51,393 nt of DNA from Chelatococcus sambhunathii (lineage in GTDB: Bacteria; Pseudomonadota; Alphaproteobacteria; Rhizobiales; Methylopilaceae). Below the pieces are notes generated by a model. The model saw only the letters and a list, made by a program, of their open reading frames with translations, searched no databases and was not told where the DNA came from. The stretch spans positions 1 through 51,393 of the forward strand of contig JADBEO010000028.1 in NCBI GenBank assembly GCA_031316315.1. The letters run 5' to 3'. Numbering within the stretch: position 1 is the stretch's first letter; each line of letters begins with the position of its first letter. Below are positions 43,754 through 49,121 of the stretch, piece by piece. Made by a program: the position numbers and the translations under genes.

Positions 43754-43780
43754 GCAAATTTATATTGTTTTTCACAAAGC
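43754..43780 (+). promoter_or_regulatory. Shared 27-bp operator-like element, copy 1
   Basis: GCAAATTTATATTG, five variable bases, then CACAAAGC; 25 of 27 bases match the element at 49095-49121 in the same orientation. It lies 98 bp upstream of the LLM monooxygenase start and 77 bp past the end of the ABC operon. The intergenic region (43657-43856) is clearly AT-rich, with an uninterrupted run of at least eight T near 43680, fitting a promoter region for the monooxygenase and reductase pair. Probable binding site of the LysR regulator at 49142. Confidence 0.6.
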
Positions 43781-43856
43781 AAAGTTTTGGTTATGACAGG
43801 CGGCGCCCCGGTCCGCAGTGAAAGATCGTCGTTGTTCCGGAGCGCCTTGGGTCTGC

Positions 43857-45092
43857 TCAGCTGACGACGCCGAACGGCGTGTTCTTGCCGCCCTTGATCA
43901 GCTGCACGTAGAAGGAGCGGTTCAACGAATCTCCCTTCTCGTCGAAGTCGCAGGTGCAGCCTGCGCCGTTGAAATTGATCTTCGTGCCGGCCCTGATCAT
44001 CTTCAGCGCCTCGACGATGTCGTCCACGGCCTCGCCGGGCGGGTTGCAGACTTCGCGGACCGACTTGGTCCAGACCGCCGCTTCCTGGGTCTTGGCGTGC
44101 TCCATCGCGAGCACGGCGATCGAGACCTGGTCCCAGGCGTTGCCGGCGAACAGGAACACCGTGCCTTCGGGCGCGCCCATGGCCTTGACGAACCTGGCGT
44201 AGGACGGGCTGTCGATCGGCGGGGCCGGCTGCAGGTGGTAGATGCCTTCGGCGACCTCGGGGCCGACCGCCTGCAGGAACTTGCCCTCGGCGTCCGCGCC
44301 CGTGCCGAGCGAGACGACCTTGGACGTGAAGCCGCCGCGGAAGATCTCCTTTGAGATCGACACCATGTCGGTCAGCAGCGGCAGCACGAACACCGCGTCG
44401 GGCTCGGGGCCGAAGGCCTTCTCGACCTCGGCGCGATAGGAAGCCTGGTCGGGGTTGTACATCACGACGTCGAGCACCTCGCCGCCGATCTTCTTCATCT
44501 CCGCCTTGAACGGCTCGACCATGGCTACGATGAACGGGTTCTGCTGGGCCAGAACCGTGACCTTCTTGGCCCCGATCTTCTCCATCACCTTGGCGCCGGC
44601 CGGACCCCACTGGCTGGACTTGGCCTGCAGGCGGTAGATCAGCCCCTTGGTGTCGCCTTCCGTCACCGCGTTGGCCGCGCAGGACAGCATCTGCACCTTG
44701 TTGGCGGCGAGGATCACGGGCTTGGCCGCCAGCGCCTCCGGACTGCCCCAGAAGCCGCCGACCATCTCGACCTTGTTGACCTCGAGCAGCTTCTTGGACG
44801 CCGCGACGCTCGCCGTCGCGCTGGTCTCGCTGTCCTCGATGAACAGCCTGATCTTGCGGCCGCCCATGACGCCGCCGGCCTCGTTGACCTTGGAGGCGAC
44901 GAGTTCGGCCGCCTGCTTCATCGCCGGGCCGTAGGCGCCGGTCGCGCCCGAGAACGGCAGCACCAGCCCGATCGGCACGTCGCCGGCCGCGCTCTGGGCG
45001 ATCGCCGGCCGGCCGAGCGCCGCGACGAGCGGAAGCGAGCCGACGCCGGCCAGCACGGTACGCCTGTCCACCACGAATTTGCCGTCGTTCAT
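43857..45092 (-). CDS. Branched-chain-type ABC transporter substrate-binding protein
   Basis: 411 residues. A Tat-like signal (VDRRTVLAGVGSLPLVAALG, ending in AIAQ) is followed by a type I periplasmic-binding fold of the Leu/Ile/Val family: VPIGLVLPFSGATGAYGPAM, GRKIRLFIEDSETS, VEMVGGFWGSPEAL and PDAVFVLPLLTDM. It would capture the solute in the periplasm for the LivHMGF-type permease. A cysteine pair (GCTCDF) near the C-terminus is unusual and may form a disulfide. Start ATG 45092 with AAGGA upstream. Last gene of the ABC operon. Confidence 0.92.
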   Translation of the reverse strand: MNDGKFVVDRRTVLAGVGSLPLVAALGRPAIAQSAAGDVPIGLVLPFSGATGAYGPAMKQAAELVASKVNEAGGVMGGRKIRLFIEDSETSATASVAASKKLLEVNKVEMVGGFWGSPEALAAKPVILAANKVQMLSCAANAVTEGDTKGLIYRLQAKSSQWGPAGAKVMEKIGAKKVTVLAQQNPFIVAMVEPFKAEMKKIGGEVLDVVMYNPDQASYRAEVEKAFGPEPDAVFVLPLLTDMVSISKEIFRGGFTSKVVSLGTGADAEGKFLQAVGPEVAEGIYHLQPAPPIDSPSYARFVKAMGAPEGTVFLFAGNAWDQVSIAVLAMEHAKTQEAAVWTKSVREVCNPPGEAVDDIVEALKMIRAGTKINFNGAGCTCDFDEKGDSLNRSFYVQLIKGGKNTPFGVVS

Positions 45093-45105
45093 CGGTGCGT
45101 CCTTC

Positions 45106-45669
45106 TCAGCTCGAGGGCGGTCTTGGGAGTTCGGAGGCGGCGGCCGCACGGCCGTCGTCGATCTGAAGCGCGTCGTTGAAGCGATTGAAGAATCCGGCGA
45201 GCGCGATCCGGAGCGTGAGCTCGACGATCTGGCTCTCGCTGAAGCTCGCCCTCAGCCGCTCGAAGATGGCGTCGCGCAGCCCCCAGGCGCGCGTGGTGAC
45301 GAGCGTCGCGTATTCGATGACCAGCCGGTCGGCGTCCTCGAGCGCCGGGTGGTCGAAGCGCGGCAGTTCGGCGATCGCCTCGGCCGGCACGCCCTCGATC
45401 TCGAGCAGCGGCTCGTGCTGCGCGACGCAGTAGGGGCAGGCGTTGAGCTTTGAGACGGTGACGACCGCGAGCTCGACATAGCGCAGCGGCAGGTTCGCCT
45501 TCTCGCGCAGCTCGATCAGCATGCCGTAGAGGCCTTCGAGCGCCGTAGGGCAATGGGCGAGCACCGCCGCCTGGTCGCGAAAGTCGCCATAGCCGGCGGC
45601 GAAACGCTCGTAGAGCTCGGCCACATGCGCCGGCAGCGCGGAGGACGGCAGCGGGGTCACCCTCGGCAT
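45106..45669 (-). CDS. AhpD-like/carboxymuconolactone decarboxylase family protein
   Basis: 187 residues of the AhpD-like alkylhydroperoxidase fold. Glu66 in RYVELAVV precedes the redox motif ACPYCVAQHE (Cys78, Cys81, His85), the Glu-Cys-x2-Cys-x3-His constellation of AhpD/CMD peroxidase-type proteins. It lies inside the ABC operon: its start overlaps the LivM stop (TGATG), and the binding-protein gene follows 13 bp later. It may remove peroxide made by the flavin monooxygenase, or act on the imported compound (inference). Cytoplasmic. Confidence 0.85.
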   Translation of the reverse strand: MPRVTPLPSSALPAHVAELYERFAAGYGDFRDQAAVLAHCPTALEGLYGMLIELREKANLPLRYVELAVVTVSKLNACPYCVAQHEPLLEIEGVPAEAIAELPRFDHPALEDADRLVIEYATLVTTRAWGLRDAIFERLRASFSESQIVELTLRIALAGFFNRFNDALQIDDGRAAAASELPRPPSS

Positions 45670-48175: not shown

Positions 48176-48952
48176 TCAAGCCGCCACCCCGAGATAGGCC
48201 TCGACCACGCGCCGGTCGCGGGAGACCGCCTCGAAGGTTCCGGACACGAGACGCTTGCCCTCCGCCATCACGTGGACGCAGTCGCAGAGCTCCCCGACGA
48301 GATGCATGTCGTGTTCGACGAGGCCGAACGAGACCCCCTCCGCTTTGAGCTCGCGGATCAGCCGGATCATTTCGAGCTTCAGCGGCGGCGCGACGCCGGC
48401 GCCCGGTTCGTCGAGCAGGATGAGTTTTGGTTCGAGCAGCAGCGCGCGGGCGAGGTCCAAAAGCTTCTTTTGGCCGCCCGACAGCCCACCCGAAGGATGA
48501 TCGGCCAGCCGGAACAGGCCGACGCGGTCGAGCAGCGCCTTGGCCTTTTGCGCGTTCGCCTGCTCCTCGGCCCACCACTTTCTGCGGGCGAACAGACTCG
48601 CCACCACGCCCTCGCCGGACTGGAGACGGGGCGCGAGCAGCAGGTTCTCGAACACGGTCAGGCTGCTGAGCTCGCGCACGATCTGGAACGTGCGCGCGAC
48701 GCCGAGCGCCGGAAATCGGTGCGACGAGACGGTCGTCACGTCGCGGCCGTCGAGCAGGACCGAGCCCTGATCGGCCCGCACGAGCCCGGTCATCACGTTG
48801 AGCAGGGTGGATTTGCCGGCGCCGTTGGGACCGATCAGGCCGGTGATCTGGCCGGCCTCCAGAGCGAGCGAGCAGCCGTCGAGCGCCGCCAGTCCGCCGA
48901 AGCGCTTGGCGAGGTTGCGGACTTCGAGCAGGGCCGTGGAAGCCGCGATCAA
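48176..48952 (-). CDS. ABC transporter ATPase, LivG-like
   Basis: 258 residues from TTG 48952. Walker A GPNGAGKS near residue 40, signature LSGGQKKLLDLARALLLEPK near 155, Walker B LILLDEPGAGVAP, and LVEHDMHLV with the switch histidine. An AAGG ribosome-binding site seven bases upstream of the TTG is buried in an 18-bp palindrome (48957-48974). It is the first gene of the ABC operon (LivG-F-H-M-AhpD-binding protein) and divergent from the LysR gene. Confidence 0.92.
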   Translation of the reverse strand: MIAASTALLEVRNLAKRFGGLAALDGCSLALEAGQITGLIGPNGAGKSTLLNVMTGLVRADQGSVLLDGRDVTTVSSHRFPALGVARTFQIVRELSSLTVFENLLLAPRLQSGEGVVASLFARRKWWAEEQANAQKAKALLDRVGLFRLADHPSGGLSGGQKKLLDLARALLLEPKLILLDEPGAGVAPPLKLEMIRLIRELKAEGVSFGLVEHDMHLVGELCDCVHVMAEGKRLVSGTFEAVSRDRRVVEAYLGVAA

Positions 48953-48956
48953 GACG

Positions 48957-48974
48957 CGCGCCTTGCAAGGCGCG
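48957..48974. repeat. Perfect 18-bp palindrome over the livG-like ribosome-binding site
   Basis: CGCGCCTTGCAAGGCGCG is a perfect palindrome ending 4 bases upstream of the TTG start. In the livG-like mRNA it can form a 6-bp GC stem with the loop UUGCAA. That would place the AAGG ribosome-binding site partly in the stem, so it could limit translation or serve as a protein-binding dyad. Confidence 0.45.
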
Positions 48975-49094
48975 ATGCAGCGGCCGGGCGAATGCCTATT
49001 TGTCGTGCAAATACCGCTCGAACTCTATGCATCAGCCTAGAAAACATCCTTTCTTCTTCGACACCGCAATTCTATTGAGCCGTGATACGTCAAT

Positions 49095-49121
49095 GCAAAT
49101 TTATATTGCTTTGCACAAAGC
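49095..49121 (+). promoter_or_regulatory. Shared 27-bp operator-like element, copy 2
   Basis: GCAAATTTATATTG, then CTTTG, then CACAAAGC. It ends 20 bp before the LysR start and lies 143 bp upstream of the divergent livG-like start. This copy contains the inverted repeat GCTTTG-CA-CAAAGC (49108-49121) and a GCAAA-N10-TTTGC dyad. The position fits autoregulation by the LysR protein plus control of the ABC operon. Copy 1 is at 43754-43780. Confidence 0.65.

Follow-up and report, generated by a model that had tools for sequence, protein, structure and literature searches.

A conserved box at the promoters of an importer and flavin monooxygenase cluster in Chelatococcus sambhunathii is predicted to be the operator of the adjacent LysR-type regulator

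The closest described regulatory systems are those of PltR (PMC3382589) and AccR (PMC11602165), in which, as the cited excerpts present them, a LysR-type regulator gene lies divergent from its target and a T-N11-A dyad, the usual LysR-type signature (PMC3382589), stands upstream of the target; recognition and activation sites of divergent LysR promoters are placed near −65 and −35 (PMC11602165). We analyzed a 51,393-nucleotide stretch of Chelatococcus sambhunathii DNA (contig JADBEO010000028.1; "the window" denotes this whole stretch), in which a 27-bp element occurs at two promoters of a cluster encoding a LysR-type regulator, a Liv-type importer and a luciferase-like monooxygenase (LLM) dependent on flavin mononucleotide (FMN). 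The locus resembles the PltR and AccR systems in its divergent regulator gene, in the dyad upstream of the target and in a recognition part that precedes an activation part located near −35. Unlike those systems, as far as the excerpts describe them, it carries, downstream of the importer genes, a putative second full operator that serves a separate promoter and was apparently gained once, and its box sequence was found only with this LysR subfamily.

On the enzymatic side, the nearest system is BdsA/DszA (PMC5819316; PDB 5tlc), which in the part of that report cited here shares with the LLM 49% identity, most of the contact residues and a separate flavin reductase; unlike BdsA/DszA, the LLM is linked to a Liv-type importer and a LysR gene. 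The Rhodoferax DszA homologues proposed for sulfolane are likewise presented, in the cited portion of PMC6395730, as a DszA-like enzyme with an importer, a flavin reductase and a small sulfone as the proposed substrate, whereas their importer is of the SsuABC sulfonate type, and the resemblance is one of description, not of sequence. The LivFGHMK and UrtABCDE (HAAT) importers have the same protein families and binding-protein fold as the importer here, but the present cluster contains an oxidase, and none of the Liv or Urt cut-offs was reached among the matches listed. Searches of the open-licence PMC literature, at the level of their listings, turned up no account of this cluster.

The evidence makes it very likely that the element forms part of an operator of the adjacent LysR-type regulator, a mechanism predicted from sequence. 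The two copies of the element are as follows.

43754-43780, plus strand: LLM-side copy of the 27-bp element, a putative derived second operator, within the 45-bp match 43751-43795
49095-49121, plus strand: LysR-side copy of the 27-bp element, in the divergent promoter between LysR and LivG, within the 45-bp match 49092-49136

Direct reading of the sequence bore out the repeat given in the preliminary description (25 of 27 positions identical, same strand), together with its distances: the LysR-side copy lies 20 bp before the LysR ATG (49142) and 143 bp before the LivG start (48952), and the LLM-side copy lies 98 bp before the LLM start (43656). The likeness of the two copies reaches 45 bp at 78% identity (43751-43795 / 49092-49136), and both copies have the same orientation relative to their target operons, both of which are on the minus strand. 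Shuffling the two intergenic regions 1000 times with dinucleotides preserved gave a best 27-mer match of 20, compared with the 25 observed. When the genome (a 4.1-Mb draft of 100 contigs, 99.33% complete) was searched with a degenerate 27-mer at up to three mismatches, just these two sites were recovered and the reversed control gave 0; a 21-bp core at up to three mismatches again returned only these two. The motif is thus confined to two sites and not scattered genome-wide.

At about 40 bp, the full box extends beyond the 27-bp element at its centre; its parts are located as follows in the window.

43755-43767, minus strand: AT-rich core CAATATAAATTTG of the LLM-side box, the proximal, activation-site-like part
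49096-49108, minus strand: AT-rich core CAATATAAATTTG of the LysR-side box, the proximal part
43769-43783, minus strand: 15-bp T-N11-A dyad of the LLM-side box, recognition-site-like, with 4/5 arm pairs
49110-49124, minus strand: 15-bp dyad position of the LysR-side box, with 3/5 arm pairs and strict T-N11-A absent

The 13-bp core CAATATAAATTTG, read towards LivG, was present at 11-13 of 13 positions in all 18 LysR divergent promoters (the window and 17 loci), while 1800 shuffled regions gave 11/13 five times and 12 or 13 never. Alignment of the seven clusters from the window's genus revealed an island of identity here within poorly conserved LysR-LivG intergenic DNA. Together, 25 sites (18 divergent, 7 LLM-side) gave a 40-bp consensus running from ATAA to TTTG, with the 15-bp dyad TTTGC-N5-GCAAA as its distal half. 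With a 40-bp weight matrix from which the same locus was left out, but which still contained close kin of that locus, the 25 sites scored 49.6-81.9; in the window, two sites scored 74.4 and 70.8, and the next, overlapping the first, scored 3.1. The T-N11-A dyad was found in 23 of the 25 sites with a mean of 4.1/5 arm pairs, and two Xanthobacter sites had a changed centre with the arms kept at 5 and 4 of 5 pairs. Two other palindromes noted by eye, TGCAAA-N10-TTTGCA (perfect in the window's LysR-side copy) and GCTTTG-CA-CAAAGC, were dropped because relatives keep TTTGC-N5-GCAAA well. The expectation that orthologous clusters carry the box at both promoters held on the LysR side (18/18), but on the LLM side in only 7/20.

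The promoter-like features near the box are as follows.

49069-49074, minus strand: putative −10-like hexamer TAGAAT of the ATP-binding cassette (ABC) operon, 5/6 to TATAAT, 21 bp from the core
43729-43734, minus strand: putative −10-like hexamer TACGGT of the LLM/flavin-reductase transcript, 3/6 to TATAAT, 20 bp from the core
49100-49129, plus strand: putative promoter-like match towards LysR, overlapping the box, with possible autoregulation

A TATAAT-like hexamer was located 20-21 bp downstream of the core at the importer and LLM promoters alike, the window's LLM-side TACGGT being weak at 3/6. The mean best match of the hexamer was 4.16/6 in 19 rows, compared with at most 3.32 in 1000 letter shuffles (0/1000), and since the rows are related, the shuffle tests overstate their independence. 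These 19 of the 25 rows (13 divergent, 6 LLM-side) exclude close kin, namely the divergent rows L056, L057, L058, L071 and L086 and the LLM-side row L056. Taking the hexamer as the −10 would place the box at roughly −73 to −34. Because the box ends 20-21 bp before the hexamer, it would overlap or replace the −35 region, as expected for an activator-dependent promoter. In the direction of LysR, one promoter-like match was found against 0.4 expected from shuffles; its second hexamer matched at 4-5/6 in 11 of 18 divergent promoters and at 3 or fewer in 7, and at the LLM-side sites it matched at 2 in 6/7 and at 4 in one. These counts are no more than suggestive of LysR autoregulation through a promoter overlapping the box. 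A simple scan for a terminator between the substrate-binding protein (SBP) gene and the LLM gene found 0, with 3.2 expected by chance.

The box also followed the regulator across genomes. Of 397 genomes from the order, 7 contained the 27-mer (up to three mismatches), and the LysR orthologue at 77% identity or more was present in the same 7; five other genomes had a LysR relative at 45-47% and no box. At this threshold, five of the 7 box genomes had both sites and two (G193, G252) had the LysR-side site only. In seven loci with LLM relatives and no LysR in the DNA examined (L068, L070, L072, L073, L074, L078, L089), the best matrix score was −13.5. The confinement to these promoters, the co-occurrence with the LysR orthologue and the fixed −10 spacing uphold the proposal that the element is a site of the adjacent LysR; sites, conservation, restriction to these promoters, spacing and gene linkage are all computed properties of the DNA. 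LysR paralogues (43-47%; 8 loci, L040-L042 and L107-L111) were considered as regulon members and rejected, with a best match of 14/19 and matrix scores all negative, at most −13.5.

Binding, activation and an inducer we infer as follows. The LysR-type regulator would bind the box, which consists of the distal T-N11-A dyad (TTTGC-N5-GCAAA) and the proximal AT-rich core (CAATATAAATTTG). The first box would control the divergent LysR/importer promoter and possibly the expression of LysR itself, and the second, beyond the importer genes, would place the monooxygenase-reductase pair under a separate LysR-dependent promoter. With inducer, LysR would switch on the Liv-type importer, the FMN monooxygenase and the reductase. 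For an uncharacterised LysR subfamily, the prediction supplies an operator and a regulon that can be tested.

The second box has a narrower distribution than the first. Among 20 SBP-LLM gaps, the core was present at 12-13/13 in 7 and at most 8/13 in 13. On an LLM tree of the window and 33 of 53 loci (34 rows: 7 both-box, 10 first-box-only and 17 unlabelled), a single branch separated the 7 second-box rows from the others (support 90/89; found in 91% of bootstrap trees), and the second box required one change compared with a shuffled mean of 5.7. This pattern fits, but does not prove, a single origin of the second box within the Methylopila lineage. The seven clusters with the second box have SBP-LLM gaps of 200-324 bp, and two Hansschlegelia without it have gaps of 101-103 bp; in X. 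tagetidis the gap is 243 bp, yet there is no box. From the distribution on the tree and the gap lengths, the ancestral cluster was probably a single operon under one operator, and the LLM-reductase pair later gained its own operator. On this comparison, the LLM-side copy is best read as a derived second operator and not as a defining part of the system. It would be a well-resolved case of a single operator gain within a cluster, and such a gain would divide what was one operon between two co-regulated transcripts. A GC-rich palindrome, ATGCCCGGG-N5-CCCGGGCAT (by eye), lies between the SBP gene and the LLM-side box in L043 and L044 and lengthens the gap there.

The genes of the conserved cluster, which takes in a flavin reductase gene outside 43754-49121, the span of the preliminary description, are as follows.

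49142-50065, plus strand: LysR-family regulator (PF00126 (HTH_1), PF03466 (LysR_substrate)), divergent from its target
48176-48952, minus strand: LivG-type ATPase, curated-profile match, orthologues in relatives
47451-48182, minus strand: LivF-type ATPase, curated-profile match, start codon provisional, orthologues in relatives
46586-47449, minus strand: LivH-type permease, curated-profile match, orthologues in relatives
45669-46589, minus strand: LivM-type permease, curated-profile match, orthologues in relatives
45106-45669, minus strand: AhpD/CMD-domain protein with a CPYC motif (PF02627; ahpD_dom above cut-off)
43857-45092, minus strand: Liv-type SBP (PF13458; AlphaFold model resembling Liv/HAAT binding proteins)
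42325-43656, minus strand: FMN-dependent monooxygenase (LLM) of the NtaA/DmoA family (TIGR03860); nearest solved relative BdsA, a dibenzothiophene (DBT)-sulfone monooxygenase
41807-42328, minus strand: flavin reductase (PF01613, 141.5 bits)

The curated cut-offs were not reached by the LivG-, LivF-, LivH- and LivM-type proteins (218.8/362, 152/441, 106.8/379 and 135.5/366 bits, respectively), nor by LysR in any of 25 cases among the matches listed. The AhpD-like protein exceeded the ahpD_dom cut-off (38.1 vs 27.8 bits), with CPYC (CxxC) read from its translation, and fell below the peroxid_rel cut-off (49.6 vs 81.8 bits).

The window genome belongs to the Methylopila/Hansschlegelia group, and the LysR orthologue was found at 77-100% identity in 7 of 13 genomes of its genus. 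All seven genus clusters have the order LysR, then divergently LivG-LivF-LivH-LivM-AhpD-SBP-LLM-flavin reductase, with Hansschlegelia plantiphila lacking AhpD. Beyond LysR, an EamA-type gene was common to three of the seven (window, G235, G351), and no shared gene was found in the other flanks at the search depth used. Outside the genus, the LysR-linked cluster was present in Methylobacterium (2), Ancylobacter (2), Aquabacter (1), Xanthobacter (3) and uncultured Hyphomicrobiales (2), a range of genera that is a lower bound because the relatives' loci came from a scan with two peptide patterns. Among 17 LysR-linked clusters, the window included, AhpD was present in 16 and the reductase directly followed LLM in 15, the two without it there being uncultured genomes (L064, L066). 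Partial versions were found at L068, L074 and L089, while at L073 and L078 LLM comes first, followed by LivGFHM-AhpD-SBP, with no LysR match. In Bradyrhizobium lablabi (L069, 5222-9961), LysR, box, LLM and reductase are kept next to a different Liv set that is 27-40% identical where matched; judged by these identities, the importer is replaced there and the regulator, box and oxidase stay.

Of the self-contained uptake and oxidation system proposed in the preliminary description, the pairing of importer and monooxygenase therefore stands, mostly with the reductase, whereas a link at both promoters is not general. The AhpD-like gene, to which that description assigned peroxide protection, is absent between LivM and SBP in one of the 17 LysR-linked clusters (H. 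plantiphila, L045 / L059), the sole such case, and is thus not essential.

In the two Methylobacterium loci (L055, L056), LysR, Liv, SBP and LLM share 88-94% identity with those of the window (LLM 93-94%), with AhpD at 76-78% and the reductase at 73-75%, and the Methylobacterium LLM nests inside the Methylopila clade on the LLM tree despite belonging to a different family. This identity and nesting suggest that the cluster was transferred horizontally. A plasmid search returned LLM relatives below 60% identity only.

The LLM scored well above the TIGR03860 cut-off for NtaA/DmoA family FMN monooxygenases (508 vs 279.7 bits). Its best match among solved structures was BdsA (5tlc; 511.9 bits, 49% identity), and the next, a dimethyl-sulfide monooxygenase, scored 328.5. 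We compared the BdsA residues described as tested by mutation in the cited part of PMC5819316. Six of the seven substrate contacts (F12, H20, F56, F246, V248, H316 and V372) were identical in the LLM, with V248 changed to L, and five of the six FMN residues were identical, with L230 changed to S. The H316 and V372 equivalents were kept in 0/15 rows at 40-45% identity to BdsA, and the conservation of H20 among the fetched loci is biased because the scan pattern covered it. This comparison leaves out L010, L014, L018, L020, L015, L022, L021, L092, L094, L102, L104, L105 and L074.

On the strength of the similarity to BdsA/DszA, the "N- or S-containing compound" of the preliminary description can be narrowed in the direction of a substrate with a C-S bond, a sulfone. 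Our leading guess is that the LLM, like DszA, would cleave the C-S bond of a sulfone-like compound; this is a separate and weaker proposal than the operator, and we rate it somewhat short of an even chance. Several points count against it. Two cyanobacterial relatives are closer to BdsA (54-56%) and lack the H316 and V372 equivalents, DBT sulfone is hydrophobic, and we know of no Liv-type importer acting as a partner of DszA. As a difference from the BdsA/DszA systems, neither dszB nor dszC, which stand beside dszA in the 4S operon, was present among the cluster's annotated genes, to which that search was confined.

We hold it slightly better than an even bet that the regulation is as read and the LLM oxidises some other polar N- or S-compound (amide, amine, sulfonate or aromatic acid), an estimate that concerns the chemistry only and overlaps with the confidence placed in the operator mechanism. 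TIGR03860 spans several chemistries, and no curated transporter or enzyme equivalog reached its cut-off among the matches listed. The AlphaFold model of the SBP (mean predicted local distance difference test score 85.9) ranks amino-acid binders first, with LivK best by Foldseek (E 4.1e-25) and urea, hydroxybenzoate and amide binders following in the top 50, and because of this mixture the model does not name a ligand. Against another substrate stand the large lead of BdsA over every other solved enzyme and the largely kept contact residues, including the H316 and V372 equivalents.

Two parallels to the proposed sulfone chemistry, the Rhodoferax homologues and X. tagetidis, a cluster carrier described as a thiophene degrader in the cited part of PMC6624754, are leads, not tests. 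More tentatively, the whole could be a portable LysR-controlled module for the import and C-S cleavage of a small polar sulfone, spread in methylotrophic and autotrophic Hyphomicrobiales, in which the Methylopila-lineage oxidase gained its own operator copy; we regard this combined picture as rather doubtful. If it were true, importer and oxidase would be induced from separate promoters by one regulator. A DszA-like enzyme tied to a defined importer could lead to the substrate for this clade.

As for the proposed LysR operator, the relatedness of the rows in the shuffle tests and the kin retained in the matrix weigh against it, as do several individual sites. B. lablabi (L069) has no clear −10, the window's LysR-side site and that of X. 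tagetidis (L067) fail strict T-N11-A, and the boxes of the two Ancylobacter have diverged outside the core (18/27 in one and <18 in the other), so that an 18/27 cut for the box misses one true Ancylobacter box. The second box is, moreover, absent from 13/20 clusters.

An alternative is that the box belongs to another, wider-acting regulator, such as a sulfur- or nitrogen-starvation factor, with LysR a chance neighbour; 27-mer genome searches at up to three mismatches would miss diverged sites, even the Ancylobacter boxes. We nevertheless consider it improbable, given that the genome has only two sites, that the 7/397 genomes with the box are also the 7 with the LysR orthologue, that the rearranged relatives without LysR (L073, L078) are also without the box, and that the box carries a LysR-type T-N11-A dyad. 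We regard it as very improbable that the two copies were left behind by a mobile or repetitive element and play no regulatory part. In its favour, they share an orientation at a distance of 5.3 kb, the LLM-side copy was gained later, and two relatives also have the GC-rich palindrome (by eye) in the LLM-side gap, but the element is not repeated elsewhere in the genome, and its place, orientation and −10-like spacing are constant across families amid poorly conserved intergenic DNA.

Left of the cluster, at 36040-39573, we observed genes for a short-chain dehydrogenase, a 2Fe-2S subunit and a 750-aa molybdopterin-binding subunit (Fer2/Fer2_2 and MoCoBD domains), and a DJ-1/AraC-type regulator gene at 35010-35954 beside this molybdenum-hydroxylase-like set. 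In L043 (Methylopila turkensis), genes at 1-3503, on the LysR side, were 28-32% identical to the window's molybdenum-hydroxylase-like pair, possibly by coincidence. An open reading frame at L055 17768-18523 appeared transposase-like by eye.

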